Program-made: the position numbers and the translations under genes | Notes under the pieces: model-generated | Databases searched by the model: none | The model's input: the letters and a program-made list of their open reading frames with translations, nothing else | Told to the model about the DNA's origin: nothing | Shown: piece by piece, positions 815 through 27,124 of the stretch | Position numbering within the stretch: the stretch's first letter is position 1 | Layout: each line of letters begins with the position of its first letter | IMG/VR virus record: IMGVR_UViG_3300037847_002323 | Coordinates: 1-33,298 of that record | DNA length: 33,298 nucleotides | Strand: one strand, 5' to 3' | From: a virus

Positions 815-867
815 TACGTTCATTCTCTCTGAGAACGGAAGTAGTACAATGTGTACGAAGGAACGCT
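815..867 (+). promoter_or_regulatory. Downstream-peptide type (glutamine-II) riboswitch
   Basis: The RNA starts 15 bases after the ssb stop. P1 is CGTTC (817-821) paired with GAACG (861-865). P2 is TTCTC (823-827) with GAGAA (831-835) and a three-base loop. The unpaired ACGGAAGTAG and GAAGGAACGC segments are what I recall as the invariant core of the glnA / Downstream-peptide aptamers. GTAC (844-847) can pair with GTAC (853-856), although in this class the third helix may instead be a pseudoknot. Known family members bind L-glutamine and sit upstream of very short ORFs in Prochlorococcus, Synechococcus and a cyanophage. Here an 18-codon ORF starts 21 bases after P1. The call is from memory of the consensus, not a covariance search. 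Confidence 0.85.
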
Positions 868-886
868 AACATAGAAAGGTACAGCT

Positions 887-943
887 ATGGAAGTGACTCT
901 AAACTACAGAGGTGCTACTTATAAAAAAGTAGTCAAGAAGTAA
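887..943 (+). CDS. 18-residue YRG micro-peptide under the glutamine riboswitch
   Basis: The peptide reads MEVTLNYRGATYKKVVKK. Translation is well supported: AGAAAGG (873-879) lies 7 bases before the ATG, the gene sits directly behind the riboswitch, and a terminator begins 8 bases after the stop. The L-x-YRG-x-xY core resembles the start of DUF4278 proteins, which are common in cyanobacteria. I recall that the Synechocystis PII-interacting regulator PirA (Ssr0692) is a small protein of this kind, but I am not certain. A plausible inference is a peptide made when glutamine is high that touches host nitrogen control. The function is unproven, and the peptide is far shorter than typical DUF4278 proteins. 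Confidence 0.75.
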   Translation: MEVTLNYRGATYKKVVKK

Positions 944-951
944 AAAAAAAG

Positions 952-976
952 ACCCCTTATTTTAAGGGGTTTTTTA
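952..976. terminator. Bidirectional Rho-independent terminator
   Basis: ACCCCTTA (952-959) pairs with TAAGGGGT (963-970) around a TTT loop and is followed by a T run on the + strand. A run of nine A (942-950) precedes the stem, so the - strand transcript also reads hairpin then T run. It ends the riboswitch-peptide transcript and can also stop late transcripts arriving from the giant virion gene. Confidence 0.88.
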
Positions 977-1006
977 TTGACAATATTAATTTAGTCGTTC
1001 TAGTAT
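977..1006 (+). promoter_or_regulatory. Sigma70-like promoter for a small RNA
   Basis: A perfect TTGACA (977-982) and TAGTAT (1001-1006) are separated by 18 bases. The promoter begins directly after the T run of the preceding terminator, so it would start a fresh transcript near 1013. No ORF with a ribosome binding site follows before the next terminator. Confidence 0.5.
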
Positions 1007-1012
1007 CTCTAT

Positions 1013-1082
1013 ATTAGTACTGCAGAACAGACTAATGTGCATAAGTGACCTACCCTTAAATTTCTAGGGGTAGGTTTTTTTT
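1013..1082 (+). ncRNA. Candidate two-hairpin small RNA, about 70 nt
   Basis: This is the predicted transcript between the promoter at 977-1006 and the terminator at 1048-1082. The first hairpin pairs ATTAGT (1013-1018) with ACTAAT (1031-1036) and CTG (1020-1022) with CAG (1028-1030), with one bulged A and a five-base loop. It starts exactly at the expected transcription start. An 11-base single-stranded linker (1037-1047) separates it from the terminator hairpin. Nothing here looks coding. I do not recognise the family. It could be a regulatory RNA or simply a decoy or relic transcript. Confidence 0.45.
1048..1082 (+). terminator. Rho-independent terminator
   Basis: ACCTACCC (1048-1055) pairs with GGGTAGGT (1068-1075) around a 12-base loop and is followed by a run of eight T. 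It works only in the + direction, because the other strand has no T run. It closes the small RNA unit and protects the convergent late genes from + strand read-through. Confidence 0.85.
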
Positions 1083-1097
1083 AAGTTATTACGATTA

Positions 1098-1199
1098 CTA
1101 CAATGAAATTAATACAACTTCTATTATAATAGCAAGCATCGTTATGATCAATATACCAAAAATAATTATTCCGTCATCATTATTTTTTATAAATTTCAT
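1098..1199 (-). CDS. 33-residue single-span membrane peptide
   Basis: The ORF starts with an ATG sharing ATGA with the stop of the giant virion gene, which implies translational coupling. It encodes a short charged head (MKFIKNNDDG) followed by about 23 almost uninterrupted hydrophobic residues (IIIFGILIITMLAIIIEVVLISL) with one glutamate near the C-terminal end. It is one transmembrane helix with essentially nothing else. It is the last gene of the late operon before the bidirectional terminator at 952-976. I do not recognise it. A small lysis-related or membrane-modifying peptide is possible. Its shortness lowers confidence, but start coupling and strong hydrophobicity support it. Confidence 0.5.
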   Translation of the reverse strand: MKFIKNNDDGIIIFGILIITMLAIIIEVVLISL

Positions 1200-4100
1200 T
1201 CTGATGTAATTTCCCTCCAAGTTTTGTTAATAGAGTAAGCAGCACCTTCTAATCCACGTAATCTAACAGCCCATTTATCAGCTTCTTCAAATCGTTTCTT
1301 ACGTAATGCATTTTCTAATTTACCATATAGTTCAGCTCTTGCCATTGCTAATCCAGCTCGTTGTACTTTATCTGGATCAAAACCATTTTTAGCAGCCGCT
1401 GCAACTATATCACTACCTATACGTTCTACGTTTGCTCTATGATTATATAACTTATCAAAGTTCTTTATATAACCTACATATAATTCACCTAATTGTTTAG
1501 AAGCATACCAACCATGTTTACCTTTTTTCATTTTAGCAAATGTAACAGGTATGTTAGGTAATGGTGTAGAGTTTTTATTTATAATATCTTGTACACTAAA
1601 TGGTGCAAACATTTTTAAAAAGTGTCCTACACGACCTTTTAAGAAACTACCTTGTGCTTCTAATACACCATAATAAGATGATTCATCTTTAAACGCTAAA
1701 TCCCAACCACCCATGCTACGACCAGAAATTTGTTCTATAGCTTGTTTTACAGGTATAGATAATTTATATCCACCTGTTCTTATAGGATTAGTAGCCCAAT
1801 CTTTAATTTCCCAACCTTGTTTACCCCATCTTAAATAAACTCTACGTTGTTCATTTGGACCACCATATTGTTTACTGTCATAGAATGGCATTAATCTATA
1901 TAATGGTGTGACATCAATATAACTAGCTCTACCATGTTCATTTAAATATGAGAATGGTTCATCATCATTCTCACCAAATGGTCTAGTAAGTGCATATATA
2001 GCAAATTGCAATGCGTTAGGTATACCAAACATAACTAATGGTACAAATCCCATCCAATAGTTTCTACGCATTTCTTTTTGCATATCACTATTAGATCCAA
2101 AGATATAATCTAAACCAGGAATTTGACCTGCACCTGCCATACCTAATGCACTATATGTCCAGTCAAATGCAAATGATACATTATTAGCAGTTTGTAAAGC
2201 TATAGGCGTAGCCCATAAATGTCTTTGGAAGTTTATACCACCATATAACTGATCAACATATTCACCTATTTCTGTAATAGCTTTTTGTTCATCAAAAGGC
2301 ATATTACGATCCATAGCTATTTGTTTATACTTATGTAAGAAACCTTCAGCTGTCCATATCTTTAATGGTGCATGTAATTGTACCCATAATTTAGTATCCC
2401 AATTCATTTTCATTTCTAAAAATCTATCTAATGATTTAGCCATACCACCAAACCTACGTTTGTTTGCCCATTCTATACTAGCTTGTATGTTTTCATTAAC
2501 TAAACCTTGTCTATAATCTGGATCCTGTAATGTAGCTTGCATACCTGTTTTATACCATTTAGCAGCTATATAAGGATCTTGAGATAAATTTTTTCTAAAT
2601 GCGTTAAATTCTTTCCATCTACCTGCTGGATTCCATACATCAGATTGCTTGACACCAAAGGCAACCATTCTAGATTCTACTAATGCAAGATGATGGAACC
2701 AAGATAAATACGGAATACCAATAGCAGCAAATTTAGTCCAGGCTAGTACACTTTCATATGCATTTAATAACTTACCTTCAGCACGTTTGTTAATAATCAT
2801 TTTAATAACATTATTAACATCTCCTCTTTGTACATATACTTTAGGCATACTAGGTATACCTGTATCATATTCTATGTAATCTTCTAGAGATTCAGCTACT
2901 CTGGTTATAAATGCTATATCACTTTCACCTCTATTACGTGAGATACCATTACCATTTTCTAATTGTTTTGCATATGCAGCAATAAACTGTCCACTTACTA
3001 TACCTTTTTTCTCAAATAATTCTATACTATTAAATAAAGGTACAACTGGCTGTGTTCCATCTGGTAATTGTGACATTAACATTGCTTGCCATACTGATGA
3101 CATATATCTATCTTTAGATGTTTCACGTGCATATCTTTCATATGCAGCAGCAGGATTAGAAAACAATGGTGTGTATCCTTGTTCTAACATATCTTCTAAT
3201 GTATTAATATCACTTGTACGACCTAGTGATCTAACAGTACCGCCATGATTAACATCTTCATTATTTAATTCACGTAATTCTTTTTTATACTGATCTTGTT
3301 TATAAAACAAAGGCATATAGTTTTTACGAAATGGTATTTCAGTAAGATATGCACTACGCTGTTTATTAAATTTATTACGTAATTGCTCAAATGAATTACG
3401 TATAGCTTCTTCTATTACTTCTGGTTTCTCCATCCAATCAGATTTTTGTAACATATAATCTTTATAGATTTGTGTTGCAGATTTTTTAGAATAAGTAGCA
3501 GTAGTCATTGGTATTAATTCTTTACCAGTTTTTTCTTTATATTCATTCAATCTGCCAAGAATAATTAAACTTAAACTATCTCCTATAGTTGTAATCTTTT
3601 TAATATTAGCAGTATCTCTTACGCTTTCTAATACTTTAATAGCTTCTTGTCTTCTACTTGAACTAAATTCTGGTTCATTCCAACGATTGCCTAATCGTTT
3701 TTTAAGTCTATTAATTTCTATTTCTAGAGCTTTCTCTAGACTTACTTCTATATCTTGTATACTTTGTACAACTTTTTCAGTACCTGTAATTTTAGCATGT
3801 ATAGCAGCTAATACTAAATTACCATGATACATGTTATCTTCTGTAATAGGTCTTGCACCTTTACCTAATTCTTTTCTAGCACCTACAGATTTTTCCCAAA
3901 CTTCTTGCATTAGTTTTGCAAGATCAGCATCTGTACGTGAGTCATTAAGTAATGTAATAAATTGTTTATGCATACCTCTAGCACCACCAAACATTAATGG
4001 TGATAAGTATGTAATAGCTTTACTATACTCATATAAAGCATAGCTTTCACTACCTACATCATTATTACTTCTTATTGTAACATTGTTAGGATTACCTATT

Positions 4101-7100
4101 TCTTTTAATGTAGTTTTTTGTTCTTTTATTATTTCTGATAAATATTCAAAGAACTCTTCACGATCAAATTCTTTTCCAAAAAATTCTGATGGTATATTAT
4201 TAATCCAATCAGTATTACCTTCTAATAAACTTTTATGTAATATATGTGAGTTTTCAAAATTAGTCTTTTCTGCCTGGAACCAAACGCTAGTTTTCTTACG
4301 TAAAGTTTGTTTTTCAGCATATCTTTCTACAATAATATCATTTAATACATCTACAAAACTATCATCAATAGAGTTATCATTAAATGATTCTATTTCTTTA
4401 CTGACATCTTGTGATAGTTTTCTACGTGCTGTTCTACTAATTAATGGTAAGAAACCACCAGCATATGTAACATCTGATAAACCATATACCATTACTTGAT
4501 GTCTGACTAATGCATCTTGTAATTCTTGTGGTAATTGACTAAATGCTTCTTGTGCATAGTTAATTAAGCTTTCTGGTACTGAAGCGTTTTGTAATGCACT
4601 TAATATTTGTATACGAGAAATGTCACCTTTGCTGTCACTAGTTTCTTCCAACATTTGTAAAAATAAATTACCAGGATTGCTTGCTTCAAACTGTTGTATT
4701 AATGAAATTAGATAACCCATTTCTTGTATATAATTAGGTTTATCTGTTTGTGTAACAGCTCTATTAGATAAAGCTCTTAATATAGTATCTTCCATATGAT
4801 CTATATAATAATCTCTAACAGTAGTTGTATTAACTCTATGTTTAGTTGCTACTTTGTCTAATAACTTTTTACCATTATCAGATAGCATAATATTTTGTTT
4901 ATATGCTTTATCTTTCATCTGGATTAAAGTAACTGCAACAGGTCGCATTACAGGATGCCATGTAGTTTTATTTATTTTAGATCCAGATGTATCAAATATT
5001 TTAAAACTATTATCTTCTAATGATTTTAATGCATTATCTTTTTGCATAATTTCACTAATAGATTTTGGCACTTCATGTTGTGTATCTAATAACTGACTAA
5101 TAGTTCCAATTTCTTGTATTACTTCGTCTAGTTTTAAAACTTTTTCTACTTGAGTTGTAGGTGCATCTTTAGATTTTAACTCACGTATCATTAGATTACG
5201 TATAGTATTAATTCTAGTATCTTTACCTTTATCAAATTCTAATGATTCTATAGTTCTTCTAGCATTTACATATGCTTGTACTGTATTTGTTTCTAAAAAT
5301 TCAACTATTTTTTGTACACGTTCTTTAATGTTTTTAGAGTTAATATCTGTTTGTAAAAATAATAAAGCTTGTAACATAGAAGTAGTAATTTCATTTAAAG
5401 AAAGTTTTTCCATTTGCTGATTACTAATATTATCTACAGTTAAGTTAATAATTGTAGTAGCATAATAATATTTTCTTTGTAATAGTTTTATATTTTCTTC
5501 AATTGATCCATCACTTGGTTCATATCTTACTGGTACACCACCATAAAAAGAAAAGTTATTACTTATTCCACTATTAGATTTTAATCTAAATTTTAAATGC
5601 TGTGCTACGTCATAGAATTTAATATAAGAAGCTGTTCTTCCTAATGCATCTAAAGCTGTTGAGTTTGCTTTATTTGAATAAGCTTCACCTTGATAAGAGT
5701 TGCTGTATATTTCTTTTTCTATACGCTCTTCATTATTCATTTTAGGTCTGATTTCATCTAATTGTTTCATGAAATCTTGAGCTTGTTGTTGTATTACAGG
5801 TAAGTAACTAGGATTAGTATACGTATCTGCCATTAATAATATTTGTAAATTTCTATTACGTGTTATAATATTAGTTTCATTTTTATCTAACAGATATTGA
5901 TAACCTATATCACCATCAAAATCTTCATCTTTAGCTAATACAACATCCATTGGTGTTATACTAAAGTTACCATTTAATTCTTTATTAACATGTTTCCATA
6001 ATCTATGTGGTATATGTGATTGTAAGTTTTCACCTGGAATACGTGATTCAATAATAATCTCTCCAGGTACAACTACTGCATTATCACCAAATTCATCTAT
6101 ATCATATTCTTCTTTTAATTCAGCTACAGTATATATTTCATATTCTCTAACAATTGCTTTAGTACCATTTTGTCCATTTTGTAATACGCCATTACTATCT
6201 ACTTCAAACATATCCATAAATTCTAAATAATTTTTTTTGATATGTTCTATAGCTGCTCTTTTACTTTTAAAACCTCTAGCTGTTCTAGCACCTTCTGTAT
6301 TTGATATAATCCAGGGCAGTCTAGTTTTACCATTAACTACTTTAAAGCTAGGTATTTTTAAATCGTAAGCAGATATTTTCTGCATCATAACTCTAGGTAA
6401 TTGTCTACGCATAGCACGCATTAAAAATCTAGCTTTAATTTGTTGTACAACTTTATAGATCTGTGGATCTATTTCTGTAACTTGATTATTTAATGCTTTA
6501 AATACAGAAGAGAAATAATCAGCATCAGTTTCTTTATGCCATGAATGACTAGATATTACATCACGTAATACTTCTATCATTTCTAAAGCTAACTGTTGTT
6601 CAGTACCTTCATAGTCATTATTGTTACGTAATTGTTTAACAATGTCTTCAATTACTTTAGCAGCTGGTTCACTTATTTGTGTAGTATCACCACGTTCTTT
6701 TATAATTTCATCTAATACTTCTGATGCCTTTACACTTTCTTGATATGTTTGGTTGTTAAACATACCAGTAAGAATATCAATATTTTCATTAACTAATTTA
6801 TATATTTGTTCTTGATGTAATCCATGTAACGTATCAGTTATTTGTTGTTTAGATTGATTTCTAATACTTGGTGTATTGCTGTAATCTAAATTTTGTACAG
6901 CTATAAATTGATCTCCTGTAATGCTTTCTATTACAGGATTTTCATAAGTAGATAATTCTTTTAATTTTTTATCACCACGTACCCATCCGCTTTTAGCCAT
7001 ACTTAATGGTATAACTAAATCTATTTGTGGATTTTGTTCTAAAAATTCTGCAATCTTTTTATATTCTGGACTTACATCTTTTGATAAAGAACTGTTAATT

Positions 7101-10100
7101 ATATTACCTTTTAATAATATTCTATTACTATTTTTATCTACAAATGATACTACAGGTTTAACACTAGTTGCTTCTTCTGCACCTAACATATAATCAGCAC
7201 CATAGTATTGTGCAAATTCTTTAGCAAAAGAACTACTCATAAATGCTTGTCCATCAAGTAATTTACTATCGTCTATTACAATATACTTTATTTCTTTTTT
7301 AGATTTAAACGATAATCCTGGTGTTGGTACTTGTGATGTACGTTTGTTCATATCAAAGTAATCTTTATATGACTCAAAATTACCATGCATTTGCTGATCT
7401 ATTTTACCTTTGTTTAAAATATAATTTAATTCAAATAAAAATCTGCTGATCTCTGGTTTGTTCTGAATATTTTTATTATCATAACCTTTTGATAATTGTT
7501 GTAATTTTCTAGCAACACTAGGTGGAACTAAAAATTGTTTACCATGATCACTTAATGAATTATAATATTCTTCATATTCTTTTATTGCTTCGTTTATAGT
7601 TTCTCTAGTTTTTAATAATGGCATTTCAAATATATAAATTTGATTCTTCTGACCCATTTGTCCAGAAGACTGCCAATATACATCTCTATTTCTTTCTAAC
7701 GCATCTATAAACATAGAACGTAATGTTTCTATACGTTCTTGCTCTGTAAACTTTTTAGCACCTTTCTTCTTATTATCTAGACCTCTACCAGATAATTGAC
7801 CCATTTTTGTATTTAATGCATTTCTAACATCTATTAATTGACTAGTAGATCTTAATGCTAATTCTTGTTCACCATCAGAGTTTCTATATTTAATAGCTAT
7901 ATCTAATTGACCTTGATTAAATTGTAATATGAATTGTGCTAATGTATTTTCATAATCAATACCATTAGTTTCTTTAAAGAAATATGATGTTAATGCTAAT
8001 GCAGCATCTGCTCTGTTATCACGTTTTTCTGCTATATTAATAGCCTTTTCAAAATCTATATAAAATTTACTTAATAGTTTAGGATTAAATCTATTAAATA
8101 TAGCTCCTGGTATAGCAGTTAATGTAGAGAAAAAGCTTACCATATCTTCATGATTAATATGTCCACTTTCTGATATAAAAGCGTTATGTCTTTTTCTTAA
8201 ATCTTGTATAGACGATTGTCTTAAAAACAATGCCATTTGTTCTCTAATTTGTTTATGTAATCTTTGCTCGTTAAAGGCACCATTTTTTAAATTAAGTTCT
8301 TTATATGTTCTACCATTACGTGTTCTTTCATTGTATTCATATACAGGTATTTTTTCTAAATTTTCATATCTATTAAATATTTTAACAAATGATTCGTGTA
8401 ATCTTTCTGCAGCAAGTAATGGATCTACATTTTTATTATTAGCTAATACATTATTTAAAGCTTTATGTAATACACGCAGATCTGCTATTTCATTTGTTTC
8501 TTCTAGGAATTTAATAAATGAAAACTGTCTGTCACGTAATGTTTTAAGAAACTCTCTAGTTGTTGGATTTTCTTTAAGTATATCATATAAGTGCATTAAA
8601 CCAGGAGAAGACTGTGTTAATAATTTATTAATCTCTTTTAAGATAGCTGTGTTATCTATATAGCTTACTAATCTTTCTGCATGTAAATATTCTATATAAT
8701 CAATTTGTGCTTCTAGCATACTGTCTTCAGTAGAACTTTCTTCTAATCTAAATGACACATCACTATTATTTAATATATCAAATGCTGCAGTAATAAATGG
8801 TGCAACATCTTCTGGATTATCTCTTTTAGCTGCATTTAAGGCTTTGTTTAATTGAAATAATACAGCTTGTGCTTCTACAGCTTCTGGTCCTTTTAAAGCT
8901 TGTACTCTAGCTTCTGCTTCAGATATTATTTCTTCTACAGCTTCTGGAGCTACAGGTTGATCTTTTGGTATATTAGCTAATTTTTCTTTAGTAGTAAGTT
9001 TAGGCTCTTCTGGAACTTCTTCTTTTGTTTCTTCTTGTTCTGGTGTTTCACTAGCAATTTCAGCTTTTTTAACAGATGGTTTCTTTTCTTTAACAGAAGG
9101 TGATTGATTCATCATTAAATCAATTGTTTTCTTACCTAGTAATCTAGTAAATTCATCTAATACAATGTCTTGTATTTTTTGTGGTACAACTACTTTACTA
9201 TATTGTTCTGAACCAGCACCTGCATATTGATTCATTATTGCAGCTTGAAATACTTTTGATAATACTTCTATTTCAGACCATCCCTCTTGATCTCCCTCTT
9301 TTCTAACATTAATACCTTGTTCTTTAGCAGCACGTAATAATGGCGCTTTTAACATTTGATATGTTTTATTGCTACCTTCTTGTACATCCAATGATTTAAA
9401 TACACCCTCTATTACTTCTTCAAAGACAGCTGATAGATCTGATGATGGTGCTATTTCTACAATAATTTTATTTGGATTACTTTGATCAATATAATTTCTA
9501 CCTGCAATAAATAATCTTTTTGTAGACTCTGGTGACCCTTCTAAATTATATCCAAATTGTTCATTAAACTCTCTAACTGTTCCAACTACTTCATAGTTTG
9601 GTAACATTTTAACTTCTATCTCTATTGGTACATTAGATTTATTTGTATGTTTATCTAAAGTTTCTAAAGCTTCAAATACTTGTTTAGCTTCTGCTGGTGT
9701 ACTCATGTTTAATAACTGCATTATTTCGCCAATAGATGCTGTATTTTTACTGTTTAATACATGAGTAATACTTGTACCCTCTATAGCACCAGACGCTTGT
9801 AATTTGCTATATGTAGTAGGAGATATAATTAATGTTGTTCTGTCTTGTTTTAAAGCTTCAATAACTTTTCCAACTTGTTGACCCATTTGATTTTCTTCAT
9901 AACGAGCTACAGTTTTATTTATATCTACTACATAAAAACCTCTACCATTACTATCTCTTACAAAGTTAGCTTCACCTTTCTTTATAAGATCTTGTACACG
10001 TTTACGTTGTATTTCTGTATTAGTTTCTATAACACCTTGTGCTTTAACTACTTCAGTAAAGTGTGTTTTTATATCTGCTTTAATTTCTTGTGTACTTTTA

Positions 10101-11857
10101 CCTTCTGCTCGCATAGCTTCTATACGTGCAGTAGTACTATCTATATTTAACATTGTAAGTGCTTCAGATATAGAACCTCTTTGTTCATATTTATCAAAAA
10201 GTCCAAAGTTATTTATCTTTGCACCTTTTAAAATTTTAGTTAGCAATGATGGATTATCAGCTTGTTCTATTGCTAGATCTACATATTCATCTATATAATC
10301 TGATAACTCTTTTGTTTCTTCATTTTCTAATAGTACAGCATCTGGATTATTAGCACGTAGTTTAATTAAGTCTTGTGCTTTTTGTGCTTGTTCATAACCT
10401 GCACCACCTAAAAATTTAGTTTGTGCTGCGTTTGTTGCAGCACTCATACCTGCACCAAATATTGTAAACGATACTGCTTCTAATGCTAATTGTTCTGGTG
10501 TAGGTAAAAAGTTTGGTTGTAAACCTACAGATGCTCTTAATACATCTCCTACACGTTCTTCATACATTTCTGCAATAGTTCCATCAAAACCAGTTTTAAA
10601 GAGCAACTCTTTTACTTTATCTCTACCTAATTGTTTTTCTAGATATGGTGTAATTGCAGCTTTTAAACCTGTATTAACATAAATTTTTTCTATTGCTTCT
10701 TGTCCTGCTTTTGTAAGACCGCTTCTTTTAGCAGCTTTTGTTAATCCTTTTCTAATTTTATTAGCAAAAACATCACCTTTCATTAAGTAATGCATAGTAT
10801 ATAAAGATGCACCAACTGATTCAGAGAAAAATTCTATACCTTGTGTAGCATATGCTTTAGCTAATGCTGGTAAAAAATCATCACCATCATCAACTAAACG
10901 TAATAATATTTCTTCATCTATATCGCCTTGTTCTGTTATAAATACAGGTGACATTCTTTCTAATGCATCTTTAACAGCATTAGGAGTTCTAAATAAATTT
11001 AATGCTGTAAAAGTTTCTGCTACACCACCGCCTAGTGATTTAGAAGTTTTCTTTAATGTATTTCCTACACCTTCTTTTTTTATTACATCTTTTAATAAAC
11101 CAGCTTTTGCTAATTGTGCAGTTTTTATTATATCTCTACTAAATTGTCTTTTAGCTACACGATCTGCTAAATCTAATGCAGCTACACTTATCTTTGATTT
11201 TGTTCCAGCTTCTTTAGCAGCTTTCTTTAAAACTTCTTTTTCAACTGGACTTAATCCACGATTTTTTAATGCAGTATTTATAGACTTTAATACTGCTTTT
11301 TTTGTACCAAATTTAGTTGCTTGTCCTGCAACAGTTTTACCAACTAATGGTGCACCTACTCCAAAAGTTGCTCCTGCTACAAATATACTACCAAGAGTTT
11401 CTAAAAAGAATGCAGTTGATTCACGTAATGTATCTACAATTTTATAACCAAATGTAGTAGGTCTAGATGCATCTAAAGAAAATTCTTTTACTTTTAATAT
11501 ATCTTCTTCTGAAGCTGTGCCATCTTTTACACGATTAGCTCTACCTAACATACGAGCAGTTTCAACTAATTCAGCATCACGAACAAATGGTATATACTTA
11601 TATCCATCTTTACTAAAAGATTCAGCCATTGCGGTAAAGAATGTTTTTTTATTCGGTGCGTCTTCTTTATCTTCTAGATCTAAATCTGGTGGTTCTGCAG
11701 TAGGAGTATTTGTAGGTTTAATACGATCTTTATATTCTGGATTGTGTGCTAAATAATCTTCAAATATTTCATCATCGGTTAAATTCATATAGGCAGGTAT
11801 ATTTAGCTTCTTAACCTCTTCTATAAACTCTTCACGTGTGTCATATATACGACCCAT
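1196..11857 (-). CDS. Giant internal virion protein, putative virion RNA polymerase with double-psi beta-barrels
   Basis: This 3553-residue protein is the last large gene of the ejection block, preceded by AGAGG before the ATG. The N-terminal ~500 residues are basic and helical with hydrophobic stretches (about 145-170 and 460-480). A degenerate zincin-like segment lies near 790-870. RIPGENLQS (1939-1947) precedes DFDGD (1979-1983) by 40 residues, close to the R-A-P-T to NADFDGD spacing of RNA polymerase beta-prime, whose three aspartates hold the catalytic Mg. A candidate first barrel holds DDSKLLDG (1529-1536), K1567, K1583 and S1619/K1622. The C-terminal ~700 residues, with a YGGINF...FDWTYS segment and a membrane-like helix (3266-3290), resemble giant ejection proteins. 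N4 and crAss-like phages inject comparable polymerases. The polymerase assignment is inference from motifs. Confidence 0.7.
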   Translation of the reverse strand: MGRIYDTREEFIEEVKKLNIPAYMNLTDDEIFEDYLAHNPEYKDRIKPTNTPTAEPPDLDLEDKEDAPNKKTFFTAMAESFSKDGYKYIPFVRDAELVETARMLGRANRVKDGTASEEDILKVKEFSLDASRPTTFGYKIVDTLRESTAFFLETLGSIFVAGATFGVGAPLVGKTVAGQATKFGTKKAVLKSINTALKNRGLSPVEKEVLKKAAKEAGTKSKISVAALDLADRVAKRQFSRDIIKTAQLAKAGLLKDVIKKEGVGNTLKKTSKSLGGGVAETFTALNLFRTPNAVKDALERMSPVFITEQGDIDEEILLRLVDDGDDFLPALAKAYATQGIEFFSESVGASLYTMHYLMKGDVFANKIRKGLTKAAKRSGLTKAGQEAIEKIYVNTGLKAAITPYLEKQLGRDKVKELLFKTGFDGTIAEMYEERVGDVLRASVGLQPNFLPTPEQLALEAVSFTIFGAGMSAATNAAQTKFLGGAGYEQAQKAQDLIKLRANNPDAVLLENEETKELSDYIDEYVDLAIEQADNPSLLTKILKGAKINNFGLFDKYEQRGSISEALTMLNIDSTTARIEAMRAEGKSTQEIKADIKTHFTEVVKAQGVIETNTEIQRKRVQDLIKKGEANFVRDSNGRGFYVVDINKTVARYEENQMGQQVGKVIEALKQDRTTLIISPTTYSKLQASGAIEGTSITHVLNSKNTASIGEIMQLLNMSTPAEAKQVFEALETLDKHTNKSNVPIEIEVKMLPNYEVVGTVREFNEQFGYNLEGSPESTKRLFIAGRNYIDQSNPNKIIVEIAPSSDLSAVFEEVIEGVFKSLDVQEGSNKTYQMLKAPLLRAAKEQGINVRKEGDQEGWSEIEVLSKVFQAAIMNQYAGAGSEQYSKVVVPQKIQDIVLDEFTRLLGKKTIDLMMNQSPSVKEKKPSVKKAEIASETPEQEETKEEVPEEPKLTTKEKLANIPKDQPVAPEAVEEIISEAEARVQALKGPEAVEAQAVLFQLNKALNAAKRDNPEDVAPFITAAFDILNNSDVSFRLEESSTEDSMLEAQIDYIEYLHAERLVSYIDNTAILKEINKLLTQSSPGLMHLYDILKENPTTREFLKTLRDRQFSFIKFLEETNEIADLRVLHKALNNVLANNKNVDPLLAAERLHESFVKIFNRYENLEKIPVYEYNERTRNGRTYKELNLKNGAFNEQRLHKQIREQMALFLRQSSIQDLRKRHNAFISESGHINHEDMVSFFSTLTAIPGAIFNRFNPKLLSKFYIDFEKAINIAEKRDNRADAALALTSYFFKETNGIDYENTLAQFILQFNQGQLDIAIKYRNSDGEQELALRSTSQLIDVRNALNTKMGQLSGRGLDNKKKGAKKFTEQERIETLRSMFIDALERNRDVYWQSSGQMGQKNQIYIFEMPLLKTRETINEAIKEYEEYYNSLSDHGKQFLVPPSVARKLQQLSKGYDNKNIQNKPEISRFLFELNYILNKGKIDQQMHGNFESYKDYFDMNKRTSQVPTPGLSFKSKKEIKYIVIDDSKLLDGQAFMSSSFAKEFAQYYGADYMLGAEEATSVKPVVSFVDKNSNRILLKGNIINSSLSKDVSPEYKKIAEFLEQNPQIDLVIPLSMAKSGWVRGDKKLKELSTYENPVIESITGDQFIAVQNLDYSNTPSIRNQSKQQITDTLHGLHQEQIYKLVNENIDILTGMFNNQTYQESVKASEVLDEIIKERGDTTQISEPAAKVIEDIVKQLRNNNDYEGTEQQLALEMIEVLRDVISSHSWHKETDADYFSSVFKALNNQVTEIDPQIYKVVQQIKARFLMRAMRRQLPRVMMQKISAYDLKIPSFKVVNGKTRLPWIISNTEGARTARGFKSKRAAIEHIKKNYLEFMDMFEVDSNGVLQNGQNGTKAIVREYEIYTVAELKEEYDIDEFGDNAVVVPGEIIIESRIPGENLQSHIPHRLWKHVNKELNGNFSITPMDVVLAKDEDFDGDIGYQYLLDKNETNIITRNRNLQILLMADTYTNPSYLPVIQQQAQDFMKQLDEIRPKMNNEERIEKEIYSNSYQGEAYSNKANSTALDALGRTASYIKFYDVAQHLKFRLKSNSGISNNFSFYGGVPVRYEPSDGSIEENIKLLQRKYYYATTIINLTVDNISNQQMEKLSLNEITTSMLQALLFLQTDINSKNIKERVQKIVEFLETNTVQAYVNARRTIESLEFDKGKDTRINTIRNLMIRELKSKDAPTTQVEKVLKLDEVIQEIGTISQLLDTQHEVPKSISEIMQKDNALKSLEDNSFKIFDTSGSKINKTTWHPVMRPVAVTLIQMKDKAYKQNIMLSDNGKKLLDKVATKHRVNTTTVRDYYIDHMEDTILRALSNRAVTQTDKPNYIQEMGYLISLIQQFEASNPGNLFLQMLEETSDSKGDISRIQILSALQNASVPESLINYAQEAFSQLPQELQDALVRHQVMVYGLSDVTYAGGFLPLISRTARRKLSQDVSKEIESFNDNSIDDSFVDVLNDIIVERYAEKQTLRKKTSVWFQAEKTNFENSHILHKSLLEGNTDWINNIPSEFFGKEFDREEFFEYLSEIIKEQKTTLKEIGNPNNVTIRSNNDVGSESYALYEYSKAITYLSPLMFGGARGMHKQFITLLNDSRTDADLAKLMQEVWEKSVGARKELGKGARPITEDNMYHGNLVLAAIHAKITGTEKVVQSIQDIEVSLEKALEIEINRLKKRLGNRWNEPEFSSSRRQEAIKVLESVRDTANIKKITTIGDSLSLIILGRLNEYKEKTGKELIPMTTATYSKKSATQIYKDYMLQKSDWMEKPEVIEEAIRNSFEQLRNKFNKQRSAYLTEIPFRKNYMPLFYKQDQYKKELRELNNEDVNHGGTVRSLGRTSDINTLEDMLEQGYTPLFSNPAAAYERYARETSKDRYMSSVWQAMLMSQLPDGTQPVVPLFNSIELFEKKGIVSGQFIAAYAKQLENGNGISRNRGESDIAFITRVAESLEDYIEYDTGIPSMPKVYVQRGDVNNVIKMIINKRAEGKLLNAYESVLAWTKFAAIGIPYLSWFHHLALVESRMVAFGVKQSDVWNPAGRWKEFNAFRKNLSQDPYIAAKWYKTGMQATLQDPDYRQGLVNENIQASIEWANKRRFGGMAKSLDRFLEMKMNWDTKLWVQLHAPLKIWTAEGFLHKYKQIAMDRNMPFDEQKAITEIGEYVDQLYGGINFQRHLWATPIALQTANNVSFAFDWTYSALGMAGAGQIPGLDYIFGSNSDMQKEMRRNYWMGFVPLVMFGIPNALQFAIYALTRPFGENDDEPFSYLNEHGRASYIDVTPLYRLMPFYDSKQYGGPNEQRRVYLRWGKQGWEIKDWATNPIRTGGYKLSIPVKQAIEQISGRSMGGWDLAFKDESSYYGVLEAQGSFLKGRVGHFLKMFAPFSVQDIINKNSTPLPNIPVTFAKMKKGKHGWYASKQLGELYVGYIKNFDKLYNHRANVERIGSDIVAAAAKNGFDPDKVQRAGLAMARAELYGKLENALRKKRFEEADKWAVRLRGLEGAAYSINKTWREITSE

Positions 11858-25271: not shown

Positions 25272-26960
25272 TTAACTAATTGCGAAGTCACTATTTTGTG
25301 CTAGGACAGTTGCCCAATCAGCAGCAGTAGACTCAGCAGTACCATTAGCGTCTGTTACAGGAATAAATCTGTAACGACCATTACCATAATCCCTAGAGAT
25401 TAATAGATTTTGAGTATCACTAGTATTGTATGTTGCTTCAACTACATCACCAATTTGTTTTGTGTTAAATGCTGCAGATAACGTAATTTCAACAGCTGTA
25501 TATGCTGTATCTGTATCCGTTGATCCTTCACCATTATCAACAACTGCACTGAATGCTTCTGCAGTCATTCCTGTGTCAGAAGATGCTGCATTATCAGAAC
25601 CAGTACCTTGTGCTGGTTGCACAATTGGCACTACTTGATGTCGTCTATGCAATAATACTAATGCATTATCTACTTGATCTAAAGGTTCTGGAGCACAATT
25701 AAATCGTGCAAACATGAATCCTGTTTCCCCAAGCAAGTTGGTTTCACGATCTTCAATGTTGATCCATTTATAAGTACCTAAGTTAGAAGCACCACCAAAT
25801 GTAGCACCAGCTACAGCTGTTGGGTTTTCTGGAACTAGACCACGATATACATCTTTAAGGAATATGATAGATAACTCAAATGGAGCATATACATAATCTT
25901 TATTGATGTTAGTTGCATTACCGATAGATGTTGGTGTGAACTCATAAGGATATACACGTTCTAATTTCCCACCTACAGTTGGCTTGTAACGTGGAGTTTC
26001 CAAGTCATGCGAGTGTGCGAAGTTTTTATATCCTGTAATTGTTCCATAACCTTCTAGTAAGAAACTAGGTCTTGCATAACGCATATCTTGATTTCTTACA
26101 GTATCTTTACTAATCAATTCAGTTGAAGTTTCAAATGAAGTAACTAGTGCAAATACAGGCATTCCATTTTCACCATCAGCTACTTTACCTGGTCTTGCTT
26201 GTCTTGCTAGGTACTGATAATGATAATCTAGAACATCTTGTGAAAGTACGCCAATTGAATCCATAGGTGTACCACCTAAGTCAATTTCACGTAATCCAGC
26301 TTGGTTAACAACAGTTCCAGAAGCACCATTTGTAATGGTGAATGATGGGAATCCTTCAGCTACTAATTGCTTTGTAGCAAAAGTAACATAAGTTTCTCTT
26401 AACCATTTTTCCCAAGCACCCAATGTAATATCAGCAAGTGAATTAAAGATCATCTCTAATTGTTGCTCGAATTGCCATTGGAATACAATATCACGTAAAC
26501 AAATATCTCGTGTTCTACGAGTTGTTTCATAGATAGTGTATTGCTTTTCTTCGAATCCATAATCAGTTACGACTGGATTGTATTGTCCTAAGTTACCGAC
26601 ATCTTCTGCAGGTGACGCAGCATCACCACTACTAATATCATGTAGTAATGCATCATTGTCGCCTCCAGATGATTTATTATCACGTTTCTGTAGGTCTGTT
26701 AAATTATACCAATCACCTGCAGAGTTCGTTGTTTCTTTACCACCATAGAAACTATGTTTCTTCATGATGAATCCACGACCATACTCGAAATTACCGAGTC
26801 CAATCATGTCACGCCATATAGACATTGTTTCTTTGGATTTATTAGATATAGCTTGGTGAACGAACTGTTCTGCTCGAATGAACGCATTGTTCAAATGATC
26901 AACAGATTGTGCGCTACCGCTGCCATACCCAGTTGTTACTTGATCGCCTGGTTTAGCCAT
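25272..26960 (-). CDS. Major capsid protein
   Basis: This 562-residue protein forms the capsid shell. Evidence is its position between a scaffold-like gene and tail genes, its length, and its content: a helical N-arm (HLNNAFIRAEQFVHQAIS), a long helix (FQWQFEQQLEMIFNSLADITLGAWEKWLRETYV) and mixed domains typical of HK97-fold capsid proteins in N4-like and related podoviruses. A linker GTGSDNAASSDTG near 444-457 leads to about 100 extra C-terminal residues with strand-rich character. The gene is visibly less AT-rich than its neighbours and has its own promoter, structured leader and terminator, all consistent with very high expression. GGAG lies 8 bases before the ATG. The specific fold is inferred. 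Confidence 0.85.
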   Translation of the reverse strand: MAKPGDQVTTGYGSGSAQSVDHLNNAFIRAEQFVHQAISNKSKETMSIWRDMIGLGNFEYGRGFIMKKHSFYGGKETTNSAGDWYNLTDLQKRDNKSSGGDNDALLHDISSGDAASPAEDVGNLGQYNPVVTDYGFEEKQYTIYETTRRTRDICLRDIVFQWQFEQQLEMIFNSLADITLGAWEKWLRETYVTFATKQLVAEGFPSFTITNGASGTVVNQAGLREIDLGGTPMDSIGVLSQDVLDYHYQYLARQARPGKVADGENGMPVFALVTSFETSTELISKDTVRNQDMRYARPSFLLEGYGTITGYKNFAHSHDLETPRYKPTVGGKLERVYPYEFTPTSIGNATNINKDYVYAPFELSIIFLKDVYRGLVPENPTAVAGATFGGASNLGTYKWINIEDRETNLLGETGFMFARFNCAPEPLDQVDNALVLLHRRHQVVPIVQPAQGTGSDNAASSDTGMTAEAFSAVVDNGEGSTDTDTAYTAVEITLSAAFNTKQIGDVVEATYNTSDTQNLLISRDYGNGRYRFIPVTDANGTAESTAADWATVLAQNSDFAIS

Positions 26961-27080
26961 TCTATTTCTCCGTTAGAAGTTTTAATTAACAAAAATGTAA
27001 ATCTATTATAATAGACTTACCCTAATAGTTGTTCTCTAACGCTTGAACTTGCGAGTTGTTGTTAACACACAACAGGGCGT
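26961..27080 (-). promoter_or_regulatory. Structured 5' leader of the capsid mRNA
   Basis: About 120 bases separate the predicted transcription start (~27080) from the capsid ATG. Three pairings are visible. A small hairpin pairs 27057-27062 with 27069-27074. A 10-bp stem pairs GTAAGTCTAT with ATAGATTTAC around TATA (26997-27020). A long-range 7-bp stem pairs CGTTAGA (27041-27035) with TCTAACG (26977-26971) and encloses the 10-bp hairpin. The last helix touches the first G of the GGAG ribosome binding site (26971-26968). It may set mRNA stability or ribosome access. No known riboswitch is recognised. Confidence 0.5.
27002..27015. repeat. Palindrome TCTATTATAATAGA (one of four copies)
   Basis: This perfect 14-base palindrome contains TATAAT on both strands. 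The same 14-mer occurs at 16809-16822 (adaptor gene) and 31716-31729 (cysteine-rich protein gene; 18-base palindrome there). A 13-of-14 match lies at 1120-1133 in the 33-residue ORF. Here it forms part of a leader hairpin. Three copies are in coding sequence where ATT-ATA-ATA or TAT-TAT-AAT codons explain part of it. Confidence 0.4.
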
Positions 27081-27086
27081 GCTTTC

Positions 27087-27116
27087 TTTATATTAGAAAT
27101 AGAATATTTATGTCAA
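27087..27116 (-). promoter_or_regulatory. Sigma70-like promoter of the capsid gene
   Basis: On the - strand a perfect TTGACA (27116-27111) is followed 18 bases later by TATAAA (27092-27087). TAATAT at 15 bases is a second possible -10. It lies between the scaffold-like gene and the capsid gene, in the longest non-coding gap of the late operon. The - strand runs straight from it into the structured leader. Confidence 0.65.
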
Positions 27117-27124
27117 GTAATTTT

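Follow-up and report, generated by a model that had tools for sequence, protein, structure and literature searches.

The 33,298-nt stretch analysed here (the window) comprises positions 1 to 33,298 of IMG/VR virus record IMGVR_UViG_3300037847_002323, read on one strand from 5' to 3'. Close to its beginning, two opposing gene blocks face each other: the plus strand carries RusA, SSB, a glutamine riboswitch and an 18-codon peptide ORF, while the minus strand carries a long late operon, which ends with a gene for a 3553-aa protein (giant ORF, 1196-11857, minus strand) followed by a gene for a 33-aa hydrophobic peptide at 1098. A candidate small RNA unit is located between these early (plus) and late (minus) operons, antisense to the late 3' UTR. 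The features of this junction are as follows (G002 is a related record described below):

815-869, plus strand: glutamine riboswitch aptamer (RF01739; 49.5 bits vs a gathering score of 35), the upstream neighbour of the unit
887-943, plus strand: ORF of 18 aa (MEVTLNYRGATYKKVVKK) beneath the riboswitch, DUF4278-like, with a YRGATY motif
952-970, both strands: bidirectional intrinsic terminator, ACCCCTTA-TTT-TAAGGGGT, with a T run on the plus strand and a T9 run on the minus strand
952-1097, minus strand: predicted 3' UTR of the convergent late transcript (from sequence and terminator position), spanning a sequence complementary to the entire small RNA
977-982, plus strand: -35 hexamer TTGACA (sequence scan; TTGACA at matching distance in G002)
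1001-1006, plus strand: -10 hexamer TAGTAT (sequence scan; 18-bp spacer)
1010-1039, plus strand: 5' hairpin with core stem 1013-1036, bulged A1019 and apical loop CAGAA (1023-1027)
1013-1082, plus strand: predicted small RNA of about 70 nt (fold; start placed 7 nt past the -10 hexamer)
1040-1046, plus strand: linker, not conserved, with an 8-nt insertion in the G002 alignment
1047-1082, plus strand: intrinsic terminator of the small RNA and its U tract (scan, MAFFT and covariance-model alignments)
1098-1199, minus strand: last gene of the late operon, encoding the 33-aa hydrophobic (membrane-type) peptide, with an ATGA overlap with the stop of the 3553-aa gene

The terminator at 952-970 is predicted to end the SSB-riboswitch-peptide operon on the plus strand as well as the late operon on the minus strand. 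Within the window, the riboswitch is the only element that passes an Rfam gathering threshold, and a permissive Rfam search of 940-1110 returned best matches far below threshold. The block at 815-943, in which the riboswitch lies directly 3' of the phage SSB gene and is followed by the small peptide, resembles the cyanobacterial glnA/Downstream-peptide arrangement (PMC2864571).

Searches against phage records with the DNA of 780-1200, the TerL protein, or the last 499 aa of the giant 3553-aa protein yielded no match, and the 33-kb virus is, by these sequence comparisons, without close relatives among the isolate phages searched. A search for a phage RNA polymerase (PF00940) likewise found no match, but carries little weight, since the control search was also silent. 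The junction is common to three phages including the window, each with RusA, SSB, the glutamine riboswitch (present in 3/3) and a small peptide facing a late operon. The two relatives are viral contigs, namely records G001 (locus L003) and G002 (locus L009), and both have short hydrophobic ORFs at the place of 1098-1199, with little sequence identity. In G001, the counterpart of the 18-aa ORF encodes a 54-aa product that has three YRG motifs, with a match to PF14105 (DUF4278) at 6e-7. A search of viral contigs for the SSB-to-riboswitch pattern recovered only these two known relatives, and the same pattern had two genome matches, one of which was read and looks unrelated; the riboswitch is found in neither. 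Three further relatives, identified via a capsid-operon protein, showed no match to the junction genes. As separate observations, L017 (16199-16750, minus strand) and L018 (4747-5331, minus strand) are phage genes for short, secreted-looking proteins that end in a PEP-type sorting signal (IPEP, a hydrophobic stretch and a basic end; NCBIfam matches weak, below cut-off), a possible clue to the host, and a 12-bp palindrome, CTATTATAATAG, occurs at 1121, 16810, 27003, and 31717 of the window (four copies vs 0.04 expected), with four copies in G002 and one in G001. It is the commonest among the palindromic 12-mers counted over the window and five related records, and is possibly an operator or other binding site.

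The promoter that the first-pass annotation had reported right after a terminator is present: TTGACA-18-TAGTAT (977-1006) lies just 3' of the terminator 952-970 and agrees with the sigma-70 consensus at 10 of 12 positions. Because such sites are common by chance in AT-rich DNA (22 promoter-like sites with at least 9 matches were seen in 5 kb vs 29 expected), the hexamer match by itself lacks significance, and conservation was therefore tested. TTGACA itself is scarce in the window (6 copies vs 25.6 expected), and two of the six copies fall in the intergenic 1.8 % of the sequence (binomial p 0.005). The second of these is followed 18 bases later by TATAAA and precedes the gene at 25272-26960 (capsid operon, unconfirmed), where it is kept in five related genomes; this phage group thus plausibly uses TTGACA-type promoters. 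The leader of that gene (26961-27124, minus strand) is noteworthy in its own right: the TTGACA promoter and roughly 100 nt of leader are conserved in the five genomes, a short stem keeps its pairing despite two-sided changes (TGTTG/CAACA, TGTTA/TAACA, TGCTG/CAGCA), and an AT-rich hairpin with a T run precedes the start, with no Rfam match for this leader in the window.

The RNA 1013-1082 is predicted to fold with -24.1 kcal/mol (z -4.0 vs dinucleotide shuffles). The hairpin claimed at its predicted start was confirmed as AUUAGU-A-CUG-CAGAA-CAG-ACUAAU, with nine pairs, one bulged A at 1019 and a 5-nt loop; it would grow to 12 pairs (1010-1039) given a slightly earlier transcription start, and the 24-nt hairpin alone is equalled or beaten by 0.7 % of shuffles. 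The closing terminator, equally part of the original description, consists of 12 pairs with a 6-nt loop (1047-1076) and T1077-1082. Terminators are enriched in the first 5 kb (5 vs 1.6 expected). The unit had also been described as free of ORFs, and the longest one inside it has 10 codons (MCISDLPLNF, 1035-1067); it was rejected as a coding candidate, with no Shine-Dalgarno sequence and no conservation in G002.

In G002, a distant relative, the same order of elements recurs: TTGACA, a hairpin (AAUAAAG-A-GUG-UAGAA-CGC-CUUUAUU), and then a terminator. TTGACA and the bulge are 42 nt apart in the window and 41 nt apart in G002 (p about 0.0009 in shuffles), while the -10 hexamer, TAGGAT in G002 (promoter at G002 5317-5344), matches at just 4/6 positions in both phages and the spacers differ (18 vs 16 bp). 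A descriptor comprising the bulged A, a 3-bp upper stem and a YAGAA loop has one match each in the window and in G002, both at this junction, compared with 0.03 matches on shuffles. This descriptor was designed after both sites had been seen, and a covariance model was therefore also built from the window unit alone. It detected G002 5349-5427 on the same strand and at the same junction, over its full length and with 38.9 bits (E 7.8e-8), the next best hit in G002 reaching 14.3 bits. On G001 and three capsid-side relatives, this model found nothing above 13.7 bits, and a two-sequence model found nothing above 13.5 bits on 135 kb of other loci. A search of viral contigs with a loop-and-stem pattern gave L013 and L014, which were discarded as chance matches in coding sequence. 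A sequence-only model scored 2.6 bits at the G002 site, below noise.

Covariation in homologous phages had been proposed as a check of the unit, and between the window and G002 the stems indeed covary around a fixed loop: 10 of 24 base pairs are changed on both sides, five per helix, and the bulged A is kept. In the alignment, 97.9 % of cells are paired, falling to 38-54 % when the partner is slid. The two sequences share AGAAC at the loop, GUGAC in the base of the terminator and UUCU within its loop, and a plain MAFFT alignment likewise brings these letters into register. The G-U pairs and T runs favour the plus strand for the unit. Because any two terminators show paired changes, the terminator helix is weak evidence, and it is the 5' hairpin with its loop and bulge, together with synteny and the -35 hexamer, that carries the weight of the case. 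The G002 hairpin doubles as the tip of the late-strand terminator, which the window hairpin does not, and part of the conservation there could therefore serve the other strand. The expectation that both hairpins and the promoter would be conserved among relatives was borne out in part: G002 retains them with the -35 hexamer at the same distance, but in G001 a lone bidirectional terminator separates the peptide gene from the hydrophobic ORF, and the small RNA unit is absent. One of the three syntenic phages thus lacks the unit, and both sequences that carry it are metagenomic.

Taken together, the unit at 977-1082 is likely to be a genuine small RNA gene, whose expression is predicted, and on balance a lineage-specific small RNA gene, with OOP-like action as its most likely mode, offers the best overall explanation. 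Host-type sigma-70 RNA polymerase would use the TTGACA/TAGTAT promoter to initiate at about position 1013, producing an RNA of roughly 70 nt, with the bulged-A hairpin at its extreme 5' end and the intrinsic terminator at its 3' end. It would be transcribed towards the late operon, and its complement would be the region between the membrane-peptide gene and the late terminator. In the window as well as in G002, the entire unit falls within the late 3' UTR, to which the small RNA is fully complementary. Given this complementarity in both phages and the analogy to OOP of phage lambda, the preferred reading, drawn from geometry, is that the RNA acts as an antisense to the 3' end of the late mRNA. 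Pairing with the late mRNA 3' end would presumably start at the exposed, conserved apical loop, and the resulting duplex could lead to double-strand processing or an altered stability of the late message. We infer the transcription of the small RNA, its pairing and its effect from these features; that cis-antisense action is its main role seems plausible, albeit somewhat short of an even chance.

The unit was originally described as a stand-alone, trans-acting small RNA. The first part holds in that promoter, 5' hairpin and terminator recur in G002, but the trans-acting label remains unproven, given an unconserved linker, chance-level targets, the antisense position to the late 3' UTR and the absence of the unit from G001. 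In particular, the linker 1037-1047 had been put forward as the targeting seed. It cannot be aligned, with 7 to 10 nt in the window vs about 18 nt in G002, and shuffled linkers attain its best target energy among the phage start regions in 82 % of cases. Predictions of phage targets from the linker or the loop did not exceed chance, and a comparison of orthologous start regions showed no common best target. A trans-acting RNA pairing with host or phage mRNAs is accordingly rather doubtful; the layout is typical of small RNAs and the conserved apical and terminator loops could be contact sites, but no phage start region stands out.

Only marginally less probable, and likewise unlikely, is that the unit is part of the early operon's 3' UTR instead of an independent gene, the promoter match being incidental. 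The hairpin and second terminator would then catch readthrough and protect or mature the SSB-riboswitch-peptide mRNA at its 3' end. Tandem terminators are ordinary at convergent junctions, promoter-like sites are common, and G002 is without a clear early-strand terminator between the peptide ORF and the unit; in the window, however, the bidirectional terminator precedes the unit, and TTGACA, although rare in these genomes, recurs in G002 at the same distance. A further scenario, to which we assign a low probability, is that the conserved bulged-A/AGAA-loop hairpin is a specific docking site in a new phage RNA family, recognised by a protein of phage or host or by a kissing partner, and serves to control the long late transcript at its 3' ends, beside a glutamine-sensing early operon. 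It is quite improbable that transcription itself is the function, with the unit firing against late polymerases and fencing off the early operon from antisense readthrough: the site between convergent operons and a promoter and terminator that face the late operon would suit such a role, but the conserved bulged hairpin, fixed loop and compensatory changes would be left unexplained. Chance, that is, two ordinary terminators with a random promoter match, is largely excluded by the syntenic covariance-model match (E about 8e-8) with nothing comparable elsewhere, despite the many promoter-like matches in this AT-rich genome and the lack of the unit in G001.

The preferred cis-antisense reading has its closest parallel in lambda OOP, a 77-nt RNA acting in cis, which is transcribed from its own promoter pO and brings about the cleavage of cII mRNA by RNase III (PMC12197685; PMC5869508). 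Both RNAs are cis-antisense to a convergent phage mRNA, the promoter of the candidate being predicted; whereas OOP pairs with cII mRNA, the complement here is the predicted late 3' UTR, which is untranslated. The likeness is one of geometry, and a sequence relation is not claimed. The 68/69-nt antisense RNA Sar of phage P22 (PMC12197685) is similar in size to the candidate, but blocks translation of ant mRNA by pairing, while the candidate covers no start region. CfrI of the lytic cyanophage S-PM2 is likewise antisense and situated close to a gene's 3' end (PMC12197685), but it is about 225 nt long and is associated with psbA and with a gene for a homing endonuclease. For misc_4 of phage phiR1-37, an RNA-seq candidate suggested to act on host mRNAs (PMC12197685), expression was seen, whereas for the present candidate it is conservation that was seen. 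The candidate probably represents a small RNA family that is new but belongs to a generally known kind, outside Rfam.

Since short sequences seldom yield alignments, small RNAs are difficult to spot in phages that are represented solely by metagenomic data. In the present case, the elements stand in the same order in one relative, with structure conserved where sequence is not, which points to a concrete RNA in a lineage without close isolate relatives, and the candidate is placed exactly where early and late transcription meet.
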